Part shown: piece by piece, positions 18,078 to 25,300 of the stretch
Layout of the letters: every line of letters starts with the position of its first letter
Position numbering within the stretch: position 1 is the stretch's first letter
Source: Actinomycetota bacterium
Lineage (GTDB): Bacteria > Actinomycetota > Actinomycetes > Nanopelagicales > Nanopelagicaceae
DNA: 32,887 nucleotides
Assembly: GCA_010031635.1 (NCBI GenBank)
Contig: RGZI01000010.1
Span: 1 to 32,887, forward strand
Direction: 5' to 3'
Translations under genes and position numbers: made by a program
Notes under the pieces: generated by a model
Seen by the model: only the letters and a program-made list of their open reading frames with translations
Database searches by the model: none
What the model was told of the DNA's origin: nothing

Positions 18078-18986
18078 TTAGGAGAGTTTTGCGTGGCGTT
18101 TAGTACTGGCGCGAACGCTAGTACGGATTAGCAATTTGCAGGCGGTCAGCCAAACCAATGACAACCCAAGTAGGTGCAGTCCGACCAAAATAATCGGGAC
18201 CCCGGTGAAATATTGGAGGTACCCGATACTCCCTTGAATCAGCACCAAAAATATAAAAGTTTTCATCAATTTAAGATGATTGTCTCGAGCTTCAGATGAA
18301 GAAGATATTGGCGCTAGCTTTAGAAGTAAGTACAGCGCAAAGATCGCACCACAAAGAGCAATAACTAAATCAGCATGCAGCCAAGTGACCATGCGAAGAT
18401 CAAAATTGTAACGAGGAGCAGCTTTGTCGCCTGCGTGCGGACCGGACCCCGTAACAACACTCCCAACAATTATCACCAATAAAGTCAGTGCGAAAACAAC
18501 ACGGACTATTAAAACTCCGGCATAAGTCAATTGCGCTGCTTTTGGATAATTCTGGGAACGTTCATTTAGCACTACTGCCCCATAAATTAAGCCGATCGAT
18601 AAGAGTAGATGGCTAGCAACAGCAGCAGGATTTAATTTTGTTAATACGGTAATGCCACCTAAAACAGCTTGACCAAAAATTCCTAAAATTTGCAAAAAAG
18701 CCAGCAGCCGTAAATTTTTGCGGCGACTTTTTAATACCCAGCCAACAGTCGCGATAGCCAATGCCACCAAAACAAAGGTCAGCATTCGATTTATAAATTC
18801 AATCCAAATGTTGATGAGCGGTTCAACTTGATCTTCTGAAGGGGTGTATGAACCTTTTGCGCATTCAGGCCAAGTTGGGCACCCTAAGCCAGATTTTGTG
18901 AGCCGGACCGCTCCGCCGGTGATAATCAAGGCGATCTGCGCCCCCAGGAGTAACGCAGGAAGGCGGGTTAACCTAATTTTGAGCAC
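18078..18986 (-). CDS. ctaA: Heme A synthase (COX15/CtaA family)
   Basis: Integral membrane enzyme that oxidises heme O to heme A for cytochrome aa3 oxidase. About eight hydrophobic segments are visible. Signatures: TGGAVRLTKSGLGCPTWPEC with a Cys36/Cys42 pair (the disulfide loop of Gram-positive CtaA), IEFINRMLT with the conserved Glu, a heme-ligand-type His in ASHLLLS, GSVVTGSGPHAGD, WLHADLVIAL, and a late His in VGLHLLG. GTG start with no usable Shine-Dalgarno but a -10-like TAGGGT 6 nt upstream, so a leaderless message is likely. Divergent from sufR with 59 bp between. The usual partner ctaB (heme O synthase) is not in the window. Confidence 0.95.
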   Translation of the reverse strand: MLKIRLTRLPALLLGAQIALIITGGAVRLTKSGLGCPTWPECAKGSYTPSEDQVEPLINIWIEFINRMLTFVLVALAIATVGWVLKSRRKNLRLLAFLQILGIFGQAVLGGITVLTKLNPAAVASHLLLSIGLIYGAVVLNERSQNYPKAAQLTYAGVLIVRVVFALTLLVIIVGSVVTGSGPHAGDKAAPRYNFDLRMVTWLHADLVIALCGAIFALYLLLKLAPISSSSEARDNHLKLMKTFIFLVLIQGSIGYLQYFTGVPIILVGLHLLGLSLVWLTACKLLIRTSVRASTKRHAKLS

Positions 18987-18992
18987 CTTCTA

Positions 18993-18998
18993 ACCCTA
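18993..18998 (-). promoter_or_regulatory. Putative -10 element of ctaA (leaderless)
   Basis: On the minus strand TAGGGT fits the actinobacterial -10 pattern TANNNT and ends 6 nt before the ctaA GTG, placing the transcript start at or next to the start codon. I see no good -35. Inferred from pattern only. Confidence 0.4.
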
Positions 18999-19010
18999 CT
19001 GCGGTTCAAG

Positions 19011-19039
19011 TTGCAACGAGCAGTGAATTACGCAACACT
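19011..19039 (+). promoter_or_regulatory. Putative sufR promoter
   Basis: TTGCAA (19011-19016) and AACACT (19034-19039) are 17 nt apart and could be a -35/-10 pair that places the transcript start at the sufR GTG (19046). The -35 lies inside a perfect palindrome GTTGCAAC (19010-19017). The -10 is a weak match. The -10 region is inside the SufR operator, consistent with repression by occlusion. Confidence 0.4.
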
Positions 19040-19049
19040 ATCGTTGTGA
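19033..19049 (+). promoter_or_regulatory. SufR operator overlapping the sufR start codon
   Basis: CAAC-ACTATC-GTTG (19033-19046) is an exact CAAC-N6-GTTG inverted repeat, the site I recall for SufR in cyanobacteria and Streptomyces. The same bases also read ACACT-N5-TGTGA (19035-19049), the form I recall for Mycobacterium SufR. The site covers the first base of the sufR GTG, so apo/holo-SufR binding here would block the start of transcription. Site read directly; binding is inferred. Confidence 0.78.
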
Positions 19050-19690
19050 AAAACGAGGAGATTAGAACCCGCGAAATCATCGCCCGTGCCATCCTCGAAA
19101 ATGGCCCGGCGACCGCTACTGCGCTGGCCACTCGTCTTGGAATTACTCCAGCCGGTATTCGGCGCCATCTAGATTCACTAGAGGCTGAAGGAACGCTAGA
19201 AGCCAGAGAGCCAAAGATCGGAAGTAGCGCAATTGGTCGCGGCCGGCCGGCAAAAGTTTTTGTAATGACAGATTTTGGTCGATCTCAATTTGAACACTCT
19301 TATGATGATTTAGCGATTTCTGCCCTTAGATTTATGGCAACTGCATCTGGCACATCTGGAAGCGTTGCGCCTTTCGCAAAACATCGCGCACAAGAGATGG
19401 AAAGAAAACTTGCGAGTGATGATCAAGTTTCTGTGAATGATTTAGTTACATTTTTGAATGATGAAGGCTATGCGGCTAGTTCTCATCAGATGGGTGCGGG
19501 GATTGAACTTTGCCAACATCATTGTCCGATCGCTCACGTTGCTTCTGAATTTCCCGAAATCTGTGAAGCTGAGACTGAATTATTTTCAAAACTACTTGGC
19601 ACTCATGTTCAGAGATTGGCAACTATTGCTCATGGCGATGGGGTTTGCACGACCTTTGTTCCATTAACTTTAACCAGCACATCCAAGTAA
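19046..19690 (+). CDS. sufR: SufR, Fe-S cluster-sensing transcriptional repressor
   Basis: DeoR/ArsR-like winged-helix repressor of the suf operon. N-terminal HTH (ATALATRLGITPAGIRRHLD, about 25-45) with the wing GRGRPAKVFVMTDFG. C-terminal cluster-binding half with Cys156, Cys160, Cys173 and Cys201 (ELCQHHCPIAH, EICEAE, GVCTTFVP), the pattern expected for a [4Fe-4S] sensor. 214 residues. GTG start with no Shine-Dalgarno upstream; the SufR operator runs into the start codon, so the message is probably leaderless and autoregulated. sufB follows 24 nt later behind a good ribosome-binding site. Confidence 0.95.
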   Translation: MKNEEIRTREIIARAILENGPATATALATRLGITPAGIRRHLDSLEAEGTLEAREPKIGSSAIGRGRPAKVFVMTDFGRSQFEHSYDDLAISALRFMATASGTSGSVAPFAKHRAQEMERKLASDDQVSVNDLVTFLNDEGYAASSHQMGAGIELCQHHCPIAHVASEFPEICEAETELFSKLLGTHVQRLATIAHGDGVCTTFVPLTLTSTSK

Positions 19691-19714: not shown

Positions 19715-21127
19715 ATGACATCAATCGCGCACCCAGAGCTAGACGGTATCGGAAATTACGAATTTGGATGGTCAGATAAGAGCGATGCGGGAACAAACGC
19801 AAAACGTGGATTGAATGAAGATGTAGTGCGCGATATCTCCGCTAAAAAAAGCGAACCACAGTGGATGCTTGATCTGAGATTAAAGGGATTAAAACTCTTC
19901 GAAAAGAAGCCGATGCCAACTTTTGGATCTGATCTCTCCGGCATATTCTTTGATCAAATTAAATACTTCGTCAGGTCAACAGAAAAGCAGGCAACGACTT
20001 GGGAAGACCTTCCCGATGAAATCAAAAATACATATGACCGTCTTGGAATTCCTGAAGCAGAAAAACAGAGATTAGTTTCTGGAGTTGCTGCGCAATATGA
20101 ATCTGAAGTGGTTTACCACTCAATCCGCGAAGATTTAGAAGCCCAAGGCGTGCTCTTTTTAGATACAGATACAGCACTGCGTGAGCATGAAGATATCTTC
20201 AAAGAGTATTTCGGTAGCGTAATTCCGGTTGGCGATAACAAATTCGCAGCGTTAAATACATCTGTCTGGTCTGGTGGCTCTTTTGTTTACATTCCCAAGG
20301 GAGTTCATGTTGAGATTCCTTTGCAAGCGTACTTCCGAATCAACACTGAAAACATGGGACAGTTTGAACGGACTTTGATCATCGCTGATGAAGGCTCTTA
20401 TGTTCATTATGTAGAAGGCTGTACCGCTCCGATCTACTCTTCCGATTCTCTTCATTCTGCTGTTGTAGAAATTATTGTGAAAAAAGATGCACGTGTGCGT
20501 TACACAACAATTCAGAACTGGTCTAACAACGTTTACAACTTAGTGACCAAGCGCGCTGTTTGTCACGAGGGTGCAACCATGGAATGGATCGATGGAAATA
20601 TTGGATCTAAAGTCACCATGAAATATCCCGCAGTTTTTATGATGGGTGCGCATTCAAAGGGTGAAACACTTTCGATCGCATTCGCTGGAGAAGGACAACA
20701 TCAAGATGCAGGCGCAAAGATGGTCCACGCTGCGCCGTACACATCTTCGACAATTATTTCAAAATCAGTAGCACGTGGTGGAGGACGTACCTCTTACCGT
20801 GGGTTGGTACAAGTGCAAGAAGGTGCACACCATTCCAAGAGCACAGTCAAATGTGATGCACTATTAATTGACACCATTTCAAGATCAGATACCTATCCTT
20901 ATGTGGATGTGCGAGAAGATGATGTGGAGATGGGACATGAAGCAACAGTTTCACGAATTAGTGATGACCAACTCTTCTATCTAATGTCTCGTGGACTTGG
21001 TGAAGATGAAGCTATGGCGATGATCGTCCGTGGATTTATTGAGCCAATTGCCCGTGAATTACCAATGGAGTACGCGCTTGAATTAAATCGCTTAATTGAA
21101 ATGCAAATGGAAGGGGCTGTTGGTTAA
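19715..21127 (+). CDS. sufB: Fe-S cluster assembly scaffold SufB
   Basis: Scaffold subunit of the SufBC2D complex, on which new Fe-S clusters are built from sulfur delivered by SufS/SufU. 470 residues, normal, with no intein (mycobacterial SufB often has one). Visible: [42 protein letters not shown] with Cys236, the beta-helix core, a second conserved Cys in [17 protein letters not shown], and [19 protein letters not shown] near the C-terminus. Strong ribosome-binding site AGGAGAG. One-base overlap with sufD (TAATG). Confidence 0.98.
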
Positions 21128-22209
21128 TGACAGCGCTAGCCTCAAATTATTTAACTCCAGGAGCACGTGATGAGGATTGGCGCTTTACTCCACTTAACCG
21201 TTTAGCAGGTTTGCATGATGGAAGTGCGATTGCTGGAACGCCGATGGTACGAAATATCTCGGAGAACAGTGGGGTTTTGGTTTCAACAATCCCTAACAAT
21301 GTTCCGGCGAAAATTGTTCCAACGGATGTAGTGGCTTTGCGTACTATTGAAAATGCTGCAGATATTTTAAAGATAGAGATTCCAAAGGATCTATCTGTAA
21401 CCGAACCAATCTTTATTGATCGCACCGGCTCTTCCGCTAACGGGGCCACTTACGAACGAATCGTTATCTCAGTTGGAGCCTTTTCGAAAGCCACAGTGAT
21501 TATTCAAAATAGTGGTTCAGCAAATTTGGCTGAAGATATTGAAATGGAATTAGGAGCAAGTAGCGATTTAACTTTTATTTCTCTACAAGAGTGGTCAAAT
21601 GACTCTGTTCACCTGGGACGGCATCAAGCAATCGTGGGTCCAGATTCTCACTTAACTTCAATTGAAGTCTCCCTTGGCGGCTCATTAGTGCGTTTACTTC
21701 CACGCGTAGATTTCGAAGGTAGTGGTGGAGGCGTAGATCTTTATGGACTTTACTTTGCGGGAAGCGAGCAACATCTAGAACATCGAGTGCATGTAGAACA
21801 CTCAACTCCAAATTGTCGTTCTCGAGTTAGTTATAAAGGTGCATTGCTGGGAGAAAATGCGCGAACTGTTTGGTTTGGTGATGTTGCTATTCGTGCAAAA
21901 GCAGAAGGCACAGACACCTATGAAGTTAATCGGAATTTACTACTTTCAGATGGTGCGCGAGCTGACTCTGTTCCGAATTTAGAGATTGAAACTGGTGAGA
22001 TTGTCGGAGCAGGGCACGCCAGCACTACCGGACGTTTTGATGATGAGCAATTGTTTTACTTGATGGCTCGTGGCATTGACGAGACTGAAGCGCGACGTCT
22101 GGTTATTCGTGGATTTTTTGCTGAACTATTACGTAATATAAAAAATGAAGTAATTGAGACCAGGTTGATTGACCATATCGACCGGGAACTTGGGAAAGTC
22201 TCCCCATGA
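21127..22209 (+). CDS. sufD: Fe-S cluster assembly protein SufD
   Basis: Partner of SufB in the SufBC2D scaffold, thought to help iron entry. 360 residues. Short N-terminal region with DEDWRFTPLNRLA, central beta-helix with HRVHVEHSTPNCRSRVSYKG, and the C-terminal motif GAGHASTTGRFDDEQLFYL carrying the conserved His that with the SufB Cys forms the cluster-building site in E. coli. The start overlaps the sufB stop by one base; the stop overlaps the Rieske gene by 4 nt (ATGA). Confidence 0.97.
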   Translation: MTALASNYLTPGARDEDWRFTPLNRLAGLHDGSAIAGTPMVRNISENSGVLVSTIPNNVPAKIVPTDVVALRTIENAADILKIEIPKDLSVTEPIFIDRTGSSANGATYERIVISVGAFSKATVIIQNSGSANLAEDIEMELGASSDLTFISLQEWSNDSVHLGRHQAIVGPDSHLTSIEVSLGGSLVRLLPRVDFEGSGGGVDLYGLYFAGSEQHLEHRVHVEHSTPNCRSRVSYKGALLGENARTVWFGDVAIRAKAEGTDTYEVNRNLLLSDGARADSVPNLEIETGEIVGAGHASTTGRFDDEQLFYLMARGIDETEARRLVIRGFFAELLRNIKNEVIETRLIDHIDRELGKVSP

Positions 22210-22535
22210 GTGCACTAGAAATTGATTTCAATACCTTAATTGAAGGAAAGCCCATGAAAGTCATGGTCGATACCACTCCTGTCTGTTTAGTGAAGATAAA
22301 AGAAGAAGTTTTCGCTGTGGAAGATACATGTTCTCACTCAGATGCCTCACTTAGCGAAGGTGAGTTAAATGGCTATCGGATTGAATGTTGGCTTCATGGC
22401 GCAGAGTTTGATCTGAGGACAGGAGAGGCTGTTGTTCCTCCAGCAGTTGCTCCACTTAAGCGTTTTATTGTGGAAAGAAATTCTGATCAATTATTAATTC
22501 ATCATCCAAATAGCCAAGTTAAGGAAAATAAATGA
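22206..22535 (+). CDS. Rieske [2Fe-2S] ferredoxin in the suf operon
   Basis: Small soluble Rieske protein of 109 residues, related to the ferredoxin subunits of non-heme oxygenases. The two cluster-binding boxes are intact: CSH at 42-44 and CWLH at 61-64, followed by GAEFDLRTGEAV. No transmembrane segment. ATGA overlaps on both sides (sufD and sufC) put it firmly inside the suf operon, where Actinobacteria commonly carry such a gene. It could pass electrons to cluster assembly or be a built-in client; the exact role is not known to me. Confidence 0.93.
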   Translation: MSALEIDFNTLIEGKPMKVMVDTTPVCLVKIKEEVFAVEDTCSHSDASLSEGELNGYRIECWLHGAEFDLRTGEAVVPPAVAPLKRFIVERNSDQLLIHHPNSQVKENK

Positions 22536-23284
22536 CAGCCCTAGTTATTAAGAATTTACAAGTTTCAGTAAACGCAGATGGTGGAATGCGGGAAATTTTG
22601 CGTGGCGTTGACTTGACTATAAAGAGCGGTGAAACGCATGCGATCATGGGTCCCAACGGCTCTGGAAAATCCACACTTGCATACTCAATCGCCGGACACC
22701 CTAAATACACGATTACCGGTGGCGAAGTAACCCTTGATGGGGCAAATGTTTTAGAGATGACCGTTGATGAACGAGCCCGAGCTGGCCTCTTCTTAGCTAT
22801 GCAATATCCAGTAGAAGTCCCAGGAGTTTCTGTGTCTAATTTTCTGAGAACTGCTGCAACTGCTATTCGTGGCGAAGCCCCAAAAGTGCGCACCTGGATT
22901 GGTGAAGTTAAGGATGCCATGACCCAACTTGGGATGGATCCAGCCTTTTCCGAACGTAGCGTCAATGAAGGTTTCTCTGGAGGAGAGAAGAAGCGTCATG
23001 AAATTTTGCAACTTGAATTACTAAAACCAAAAATAGCAATCTTGGATGAAACTGATTCAGGTTTAGATGTCGATGCATTGCGGATCGTTTCAGAAGGCGT
23101 AAACCGGATTCGTGAGAAAAATGAGATGGGTGTAATGCTTATTACTCACTACACCAGAATCTTAAAATACATCAAACCTGATTTTGTGCATGTATTTGCA
23201 GGCGGAAAAATCGTCGAACAAGGTGGCGCTGATCTTGCTGATCGGCTTGAAGCAAATGGTTACGCCGAATATACGACTGCGTAA
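22532..23284 (+). CDS. sufC: Fe-S cluster assembly ATPase SufC
   Basis: ABC-type ATPase of the SufBC2D scaffold; its dimerisation opens the SufB-SufD interface. Walker A GPNGSGKST starts at residue 40; the signature is FSGGEKKRHEILQLELLKP, the SufC-specific variant; Walker B AILDETDSGLD; H-loop LITHYTRIL. 250 residues, no membrane segments. Overlaps the upstream Rieske gene by ATGA; sufS follows 11 nt later. Confidence 0.98.
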   Translation: MTALVIKNLQVSVNADGGMREILRGVDLTIKSGETHAIMGPNGSGKSTLAYSIAGHPKYTITGGEVTLDGANVLEMTVDERARAGLFLAMQYPVEVPGVSVSNFLRTAATAIRGEAPKVRTWIGEVKDAMTQLGMDPAFSERSVNEGFSGGEKKRHEILQLELLKPKIAILDETDSGLDVDALRIVSEGVNRIREKNEMGVMLITHYTRILKYIKPDFVHVFAGGKIVEQGGADLADRLEANGYAEYTTA

Positions 23285-23295
23285 AGGTTAATTAA

Positions 23296-24549
23296 ATGGC
23301 GCTACTAGATACGAATTTAATTCGGCAAGATTTCCCAATACTGAGCAGAACTGTCCGCAATGGGAAGAAATTGGTGTATCTAGATAACGCTGCAACAAGC
23401 CAGAAACCATTAGTGGTTCTCGATGCGGAACGTAATTTTTATTTAAATCACAATGCCGCCGCGCACAGAGGCGCCCATCTGTTAGCAGAAGAAGCTACCG
23501 ATGCATTTGAAGGAGCTCGTGCAATAGTTGCAGATTTCATTTCTGCGCAAAGTTCAGAAATTATTTTCACGAAAAGTGCAACTGAATCAATAAATGTTGT
23601 TTCATATGGTTTTTCAAATCACCTTTCAAAAAGTGATCCATTCTTCATCGGCGCTGAGCACAATATTGTGGTCACGCAATTAGAGCATCATGCAAATCTT
23701 TTACCTTGGCAGCAGTTGGCTAAAAGAAGTGGTGCGAAGTTATCTTGGCTAGGAATTACTGCAGATGTCGCAATAGATATTTCTAAAATCGATTCAATAA
23801 TCAATGATAAAACTAAGATCGTAGCTTTTACCCATCAATCAAATGTTTCAGGCGCGATCACTCAACTAGAACCGATTATTAAACGAGCGCGCGAAGTTGG
23901 CGCAATGGTTTTGTTAGATGCTTGCCAATCAGTCCCACACATGCCCGTTGAGGTGAATAAATTAAATGTGGATTTCTTGACATATTCTGGCCACAAAGCG
24001 GTAGGACCAACTGGTGTTGGAGTCCTTTGGGGAAGAAGTGAATTATTGGAGAAAATGGAACCCATGATCACCGGTGGTTCCATGATTGACAGCGCCACTA
24101 TCGAAAGTGCAACATGGGCAAAAGCGCCAAAGAAATTTGAAGCAGGCGTTCCAAATATGGCACAGGCGGTTGGGTTAGGTACAGCGTTAAATTATTTAAC
24201 AAAAATTGGTATGGAAAAGATCTATCAACATGAAGAATTACTCACAGCGAGAGCGCTAAAAGGCTTACAGGATATTTCGGGTGTAGAAATCATAGGATCA
24301 AAAAGTTCACAAAATCGTGGCAGTGCAATCTCTTTCACTCTAGAAGGAGTGCACCCGCATGATGTTGGGCAAGTTTTAGATGATTCAGGGATCGCGGTCC
24401 GAACTGGCCATCATTGCGCTTGGCCACTTATGCAAGAGTTGAAGTTGAATGCGACAACTAGAGCTTCATTTTATTTGTATAACACTCCAGAAGAAGTAGA
24501 TATATTTCTTGATGGCGTGCGCGAAGTAAAGAAATTTTTCAAGGTATAG
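23296..24549 (+). CDS. sufS: Cysteine desulfurase SufS
   Basis: PLP enzyme of the type II (SufS/CsdA) group that takes sulfur from cysteine as a persulfide. 417 residues. Visible: YLDNAATSQKP, NAAAHRGAH, HHANLLPWQ, DACQSVPHMPV, the PLP lysine Lys234 in TYSGHKAVGPTG, and the catalytic Cys374 in VRTGHHCAWPLM. Passes its persulfide to SufU encoded just downstream. Only two bases separate its stop from the sufU ATG. Confidence 0.98.
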   Translation: MALLDTNLIRQDFPILSRTVRNGKKLVYLDNAATSQKPLVVLDAERNFYLNHNAAAHRGAHLLAEEATDAFEGARAIVADFISAQSSEIIFTKSATESINVVSYGFSNHLSKSDPFFIGAEHNIVVTQLEHHANLLPWQQLAKRSGAKLSWLGITADVAIDISKIDSIINDKTKIVAFTHQSNVSGAITQLEPIIKRAREVGAMVLLDACQSVPHMPVEVNKLNVDFLTYSGHKAVGPTGVGVLWGRSELLEKMEPMITGGSMIDSATIESATWAKAPKKFEAGVPNMAQAVGLGTALNYLTKIGMEKIYQHEELLTARALKGLQDISGVEIIGSKSSQNRGSAISFTLEGVHPHDVGQVLDDSGIAVRTGHHCAWPLMQELKLNATTRASFYLYNTPEEVDIFLDGVREVKKFFKV

Positions 24550-24551
24550 CG

Positions 24552-24992
24552 ATGAGTCTAGAATCCTTATATCAAGAAATTATCCTTGATCATTACAAAC
24601 GTCCTAAAAATAAAGTACTGCAAGATAAATATTCTGTTGAAGTTCATCATAACAATCCCAGTTGTGGCGATGAGGTAACGCTTCGAGTCCAAGTAGAAAA
24701 TCAAATTGTTACCGAACTTTCATGGGATGGTGTTGGTTGTTCTATTTCCCAAGCGAGTTCATCTGTAATGAGTGAGTTGACACAGGGGATTCCAGTGGAG
24801 AAAGCCTTGCAATTAGAAGAGTCTTTTCTGGAATTGATGCAAGGCAAAGGCGAAGTCGTAGCGGATGAAGAAGAGTTAGAAGACGCAATTGCATTTTCTG
24901 GAGTTGCACGCTACCCGGCTCGGGTAAAGTGTGCGTTGCTAGGTTGGATGGCGCTGAAAGATGCGCTCTTGAGAGCTGGAGGAAGTAAATGA
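24552..24992 (+). CDS. sufU: SufU, zinc-dependent sulfur transfer protein
   Basis: IscU-like fold, but of the Gram-positive SufU type, which carries zinc and accepts sulfur from SufS rather than acting as a scaffold. 146 residues. Ligands in NPSCGDE (Cys38, Asp40), GVGCSIS (Cys63) and ARVKCALLGW (Cys127). The insert between the second and third ligands (about 64-126) is the usual SufU-type extension. Stop overlaps sufT by ATGA. Confidence 0.97.
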   Translation: MSLESLYQEIILDHYKRPKNKVLQDKYSVEVHHNNPSCGDEVTLRVQVENQIVTELSWDGVGCSISQASSSVMSELTQGIPVEKALQLEESFLELMQGKGEVVADEEELEDAIAFSGVARYPARVKCALLGWMALKDALLRAGGSK

Positions 24993-25300
24993 CCGCATCT
25001 GTAGAAGATCTAACTGAAGCAATGAAAGATGTTGTGGATCCAGAATTAGGAATAAATGTAGTAGATCTTGGATTGGTTTATGGTGTGAGCATCGATGATG
25101 CCAATATCTGCACCTTAGATATGACACTTACCTCAGCAGCATGTCCACTTACCGATGTGATCGAAGATCAAACAAGACGGGCATTAGATGGCTTGTCTGA
25201 CGATGTGCGAATCAATTGGGTATGGATGCCACCATGGGGACCAGACAAAATAACTGATTCAGGAAGAGAGCAATTACGCGCTCTAGGATTCACCGTATAG
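24989..25300 (+). CDS. sufT: SufT/MIP18-family (DUF59) Fe-S maturation factor
   Basis: Short DUF59 protein of 103 residues, related to MIP18 and PaaD, that assists Fe-S protein maturation. Motifs: DVVDPELGINVVDLGLVYGV and MTLTSAACPLTDVIEDQ with the conserved Cys. The family motif VWMPPWGPDKITDSGREQL is present at the C-terminus. ATGA overlap with sufU; the ABC exporter starts 10 nt downstream. Confidence 0.95.
   Translation: MTASVEDLTEAMKDVVDPELGINVVDLGLVYGVSIDDANICTLDMTLTSAACPLTDVIEDQTRRALDGLSDDVRINWVWMPPWGPDKITDSGREQLRALGFTV

Follow-up and report, generated by a model that had tools for sequence, protein, structure and literature searches.

The sufR locus and the suf operon

The window analyzed here is a stretch of DNA of 32,887 nucleotides from a member of the Nanopelagicaceae. 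The sufR gene (positions 19046 to 19690, plus strand) encodes a protein of 214 amino acids, and its GTG start codon and predicted transcript start both lie at 19046. It is the first gene of the suf operon (gene order sufR-sufB-sufD-Rieske-sufC-sufS-sufU-DUF59), the rest of which (19715 to 25300, plus strand) contains sufB, sufD, a Rieske ferredoxin gene, sufC, sufS, sufU, and a gene for a sufT-like DUF59 protein. The N terminus of the sufR product is a winged helix-turn-helix, with Pfam HTH_24 and HTH_11 both above the cut-off. In an alignment of SufR proteins, C156, C160, C173, and C201 are invariant and are likely cluster ligands; their spacing, C-X3-C-X12-C-X27-C, is identical to that of residues 171, 175, 188, and 216 of Corynebacterium glutamicum SufR (PMC11995493). 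The cyanobacterial SufR equivalog TIGR02702 aligned with the product over its full length with 82.6 bits and an E value of 2.9e-23. This score is below the curated cut-off of 178.8, and therefore the protein, though homologous, is filed only as the actinobacterial SufR type.

SufR was present in 143 of 151 Nanopelagicaceae genomes in whole-genome searches. The named relatives, with roughly 90% identity, are MAGs of Actinomycetota, Candidatus Nanopelagicaceae among them. Nanopelagicaceae-type SufR loci also occur in public MAG records that bear the title Bifidobacterium breve or Candidatus Fonsibacter lacus (L201, L209, L213, L223, and others), which are probably mislabelled or mis-binned.

Promoter and predicted operator at the sufR start codon

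A -10 element, AACACT (19034 to 19039, plus strand), is located at -12 to -7 from the GTG, and a probable -35 region, GTTGCA (19010 to 19015, plus strand), precedes it with an 18-bp spacer. Among 129 family genomes, A19035 and T19039 of the -10 element and T19011 and G19013 of the -35 region are invariant, C19014 is kept in 116, and the family consensus of the -35 region is about GTGGCG/TTGGCA. The lack of the usual first T counts against AACACT as a -10 element; Streptomyces-like relatives have AACAAT at this position, the same place as the reported Streptomyces avermitilis -10 element. The first-pass annotation had proposed the promoter TTGCAA/AACACT, of which AACACT is retained as the -10 element, whereas TTGCAA (19011 to 19016, 17-bp spacer) is off by one base relative to the conserved -35 region. 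It had also stated that sufR has no Shine-Dalgarno sequence, and indeed no match was detected in the 22 bases upstream of the GTG; sufB, by contrast, has AGGAG. The position of the -10 element and the missing Shine-Dalgarno sequence fit a leaderless transcript, and the spacing between the -10 element and the GTG is kept in 129 genomes. The compact switch proposed earlier is upheld in that about 37 bp (19010 to 19048) appear to accommodate promoter, operator, transcript start, and start codon together, which is supported by the invariance of this geometry in 129 genomes and by the mapped starts reported for relatives.

The sequence around 19025 to 19054 is GAATTACGCAACACTATCGTTGTGAAAAAC. As first noted, it contains an exact CAAC-N6-GTTG core (CAACACTATCGTTG, 19033 to 19046, plus strand), and the final G of GTTG is the first base of the sufR GTG at 19046. 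The same bases also fit ACACT-N5-TGTGA exactly (ACACTATCGTTGTGA, 19035 to 19049), which is presumably the SufR motif of Mycobacterium tuberculosis. The view that two independently described motifs coincide here was not sustained, since both represent one orthologous operator in one register, described in different genera; the axis of CAAC-N6-GTTG lies at 19039.5, and ACACT-N5-TGTGA forms no clean inverted repeat. By itself, the core is not above chance, with an expectation of 0.58 per window and 34 places in 1.64 Mb versus 84 for the reversed control. Because this count is at or below that of the reversed control, the core alone was rejected as a regulon marker. A search for AACACT-N4-TTGTGA at two mismatches gave no enrichment, and nothing was found in the viral contigs that were also searched. 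A near-identical core on contig 102, CAACACTATTGTTG, lies within a coding sequence and was treated as a chance occurrence. The functional unit is larger than the core first noted and comprises 19028 to 19051 plus the -35 region. The full predicted SufR operator, TTACGCAAC-N6-GTTGTGAAA (24 bp; 19028 to 19051, plus strand), is supported by its conservation, by the box of other Actinomycetes, and by its likeness to a palindrome upstream of efeU.

Divergent from sufR is ctaA/COX15 (heme A synthase; 18078 to 18986, minus strand), with its start 59 bp from sufR; it was recognized beside sufR in 104 of 129 relatives. A -10 element, TAGGGT (18993 to 18998, minus strand), lies at -12 to -7 from the ctaA GTG, and by this arrangement ctaA looks leaderless too. 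The promoters of sufR and ctaA may compete, because the ctaA -35 region would abut or overlap that of sufR. A transketolase gene (18031, minus strand) likewise carries TAGGCT at -12 to -7, counted from its ATG, without a clear Shine-Dalgarno sequence, and leaderless starts therefore look common here.

Conservation of the promoter and operator block

Of 130 sufR upstream regions read in the Nanopelagicaceae, 129 contain the block, and the remaining one is a contig end. The block is kept in the same register in 129 of 129 regions, which places the site above chance, the sequences being related and the counts not independent events. Invariant positions are T19011, G19013, A19026, T19028, T19029, A19030, G19032, A19035, C19036, A19037, T19039, and all of 19043 to 19051 (GTTGTGAAA), and conservation drops away on both flanks. 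Other Actinomycetes families of the class sample share this box. Three genomes of the same class, which are 7.9 to 9.7 Mb in size and appear to be Streptomyces-like, carry TTACGCAACAATGGNGTTGTGAAA with the GTG at the same place, and Mycobacterium-like genomes carry GAATTGCGTCACACTGGTGTTGTGAAA, with ACACT-N5-TGTGA in the same register.

All 129 family members have a GTG start, AAA as codon 2, and a zero-length leader geometry. Elsewhere in 30 sufR genes, lysine is encoded by AAA 202 times and by AAG 176 times, and the N-terminal stretch that follows codon 2 varies in length. The invariance of GTG AAA against mixed lysine codons and a variable following segment indicates that a constraint on the DNA probably fixes codons 1 and 2.

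A second palindrome upstream of iron-import genes

A search of the genome for a regulon, as had been suggested, succeeded with the extended box, which gave one other site in the same genome, upstream of efeU. This site, TTACGCAACATAAAAGTTGCGTAA (contig 192, 13330 to 13353; L277:1501-1524), is a perfect inverted repeat, TTACGCAAC-N6-GTTGCGTAA, 27 bp upstream of the gene. The efeU product, an iron permease, scores above the NCBIfam EfeU cut-off and matches Pfam FTR1. Two further sites in this genome with three mismatches were rejected as targets since they overlap long reading frames.

The palindrome was present in all 88 of the family's EfeU upstream regions that were read: 66 copies are perfect, 18 have one mismatch, and 4 have two mismatches over 18 positions, compared with mostly 6 to 10 mismatches in shuffled efeU upstream regions. 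Among the 73 cases with the start set automatically, the palindrome lies 27 to 28 bp from the efeU start in 65, and TANNNT occupies -12 to -7 in 60, which indicates that efeU also looks leaderless. The palindrome covers the efeU -35 region. In at least seven family genomes in which EfeU was not found, the palindrome precedes a gene for a periplasmic binding protein; the one checked against solved structures matched ferric-binding proteins (6.6e-75). Family genomes typically contain one or two sites at two mismatches, and the reversed control contains almost none.

A related palindrome, TTACGCA[GT]C...GTTGCG(T/A)AA, was observed in family f62 (L427 to L442) about 140 bp before a gene for a geranylgeranyl-reductase-like flavoprotein. 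It precedes a reductase-like gene and not iron genes, and it was set aside as a different motif. Such a resemblance therefore does not prove that the same protein reads both sequences.

The efeU palindrome TTACGCAAC-N6-GTTGCGTAA and the sufR operator TTACGCAAC-N6-GTTGTGAAA match at 16 of 18 positions, and exactly two bases of sufR differ (GCG TAA to GTG AAA). In the sufR frame, the palindromic right half would read GCG TAA, which lacks a start codon and runs straight into a stop. The two-base departure of the sufR operator is thus explained by the need for its right half to read GTG AAA. In addition, the variants of the efeU half-sites fall at positions that are also variable in sufR, and L362, one of the efeU sites, has the sufR-type right half GTTGTGAAA. 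Of the sequence arguments that a single protein may read both sites, the strongest lies in the differences matched to the start codon and the shared variant positions.

Comparison with known SufR systems

An operator that overlaps promoter, start site, and start codon has precedents in related bacteria. S. avermitilis SufR binds CAAC-N6-GTTG over the -10 element AACAAT, and the last G is the transcript start, as cited from Cheng 2020 in PMC11995493. In S. avermitilis sufRBDCSU, as that account describes it, the operator likewise lies on the -10 element and transcript start, and the suf operon begins with sufR. Streptomyces-like genomes share the identical 24-bp frame, TTACGCAAC-N6-GTTGTGAAA, and the place of the GTG; unlike the Nanopelagicaceae, they have a different six-base spacer and only the sufR copy, their iron genes lacking a second palindrome. 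In C. glutamicum, GAAC-N6-GTTG covers the -10 element of TSS1, and the S. avermitilis arrangement is nearly conserved. However, C. glutamicum sufR has three starts and a native ribosome binding site is mentioned, so it is not described as leaderless (PMC11995493). M. tuberculosis Rv1460/SufR is an autorepressor with a leaderless transcript, but a second start before sufB was reported (PMC6034842), and Mycobacterium-like genomes differ from the present one in having the left half TTGCGTCAC. Cyanobacterial SufR (Synechocystis) is also an autoregulated [4Fe-4S] suf repressor at CAAC-N6-GTTG, but its sufR is divergent from sufBCDS with separate sites, and its ligand residues differ (PMC13421787, PMC8593673). 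The precedents of S. avermitilis, C. glutamicum, and M. tuberculosis indicate that the compact leaderless autoregulatory switch is known in kind.

Proposed regulation and alternative explanations

The sequences, positions, and conservation described above were observed directly, and the best explanation for them is that SufR autoregulates a leaderless sufR-suf operon through this operator. Because the palindrome in its unmodified form sits on the -35 region of efeU, or on that of a ferric-iron binding protein gene in genomes in which EfeU was not found, SufR most likely represses iron import too; this reading as a whole is held with high confidence. By analogy with relatives, in which the start is leaderless and cluster loss leads to suf derepression, SufR, probably as a [4Fe-4S] homodimer, would bind the 24-bp inverted repeat at 19028 to 19051 and cover the -10 element, the transcript start, and codons 1 and 2. 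When clusters are plentiful, the dimer would exclude RNA polymerase from the -10 element and the transcript start of sufR, and at the efeU promoter it would occupy the -35 region. Cluster loss would then open both the suf operon and efeU. Somewhat less firmly, but still with good probability, the Nanopelagicaceae SufR is a two-target regulator coupling Fe-S assembly to iron import, which represses suf and whichever importer is carried (EfeU, otherwise an FbpA-type ABC importer), the asymmetry of its own operator arising from the leaderless start codon (GCG TAA to GTG AAA).

It is unlikely, though the most serious alternative, that SufR reads only its own operator and that the efeU palindrome belongs to a different iron regulator with a similar recognition sequence by chance. 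In several genera the left half of the sufR site switches from CA to AC at 19033 to 19034 (GCAAC to GACAC), giving TTACGACAC, while efeU still has TTACGCAAC. The two sites therefore do not covary, which counts against a common reader, as does the presence of the sufR copy alone in Streptomyces-like genomes. The left-half switch may be a tuning of autoregulation. The similar palindrome at unrelated genes of another family points the same way, as does an additional box, TAGGTTAGGCATACCTAA, that accompanies the palindrome in the efeU promoters of genus g6 (L388, L390, and L394) and that we take to be DtxR/IdeR-like. On the other hand, a separate regulator would have to share by coincidence the nine-base half-site and N6 spacing of the sufR operator. 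It would also leave unexplained why the start codon demands precisely the two bases at which sufR differs and why efeU variants, including one full GTTGTGAAA half, fall at sufR-variable positions. The SufR helix TPAGIRRHLD is, moreover, unchanged between the groups.

Two further explanations concern the sufR site itself. The three sufR transcript starts of C. glutamicum (PMC11995493) would allow a second upstream start that gives sufR a leader, with the GTG-overlapping site acting as a downstream roadblock only. This is improbable, given that only about 59 bp separate sufR from the divergent ctaA, that the spacing of the -35 and -10 elements to the GTG is constant across 129 genomes, and that sufR has no Shine-Dalgarno sequence. 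A chance match of a short motif without function, as the background frequency of CAAC-N6-GTTG alone might suggest, has a negligible probability and is already refuted by the invariant conservation in 129 family genomes and by the box in other families.

Implications

Two points add to the known switch: the proposed regulon that includes efeU, and the way in which the start codon explains the operator asymmetry. Both appear to be undescribed in the literature searched, and a link between SufR and EfeU was not found in the portions of it that were available. The start codon within the 24-bp operator accounts base for base for the departure of that operator from a perfect palindrome, and the perfect form is found at iron-import genes throughout a family of freshwater bacteria that are very abundant. 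Should SufR read this palindrome, these streamlined genomes put iron uptake under an Fe-S sensor, which suggests that one sensor may serve both iron-sulfur assembly and iron uptake.
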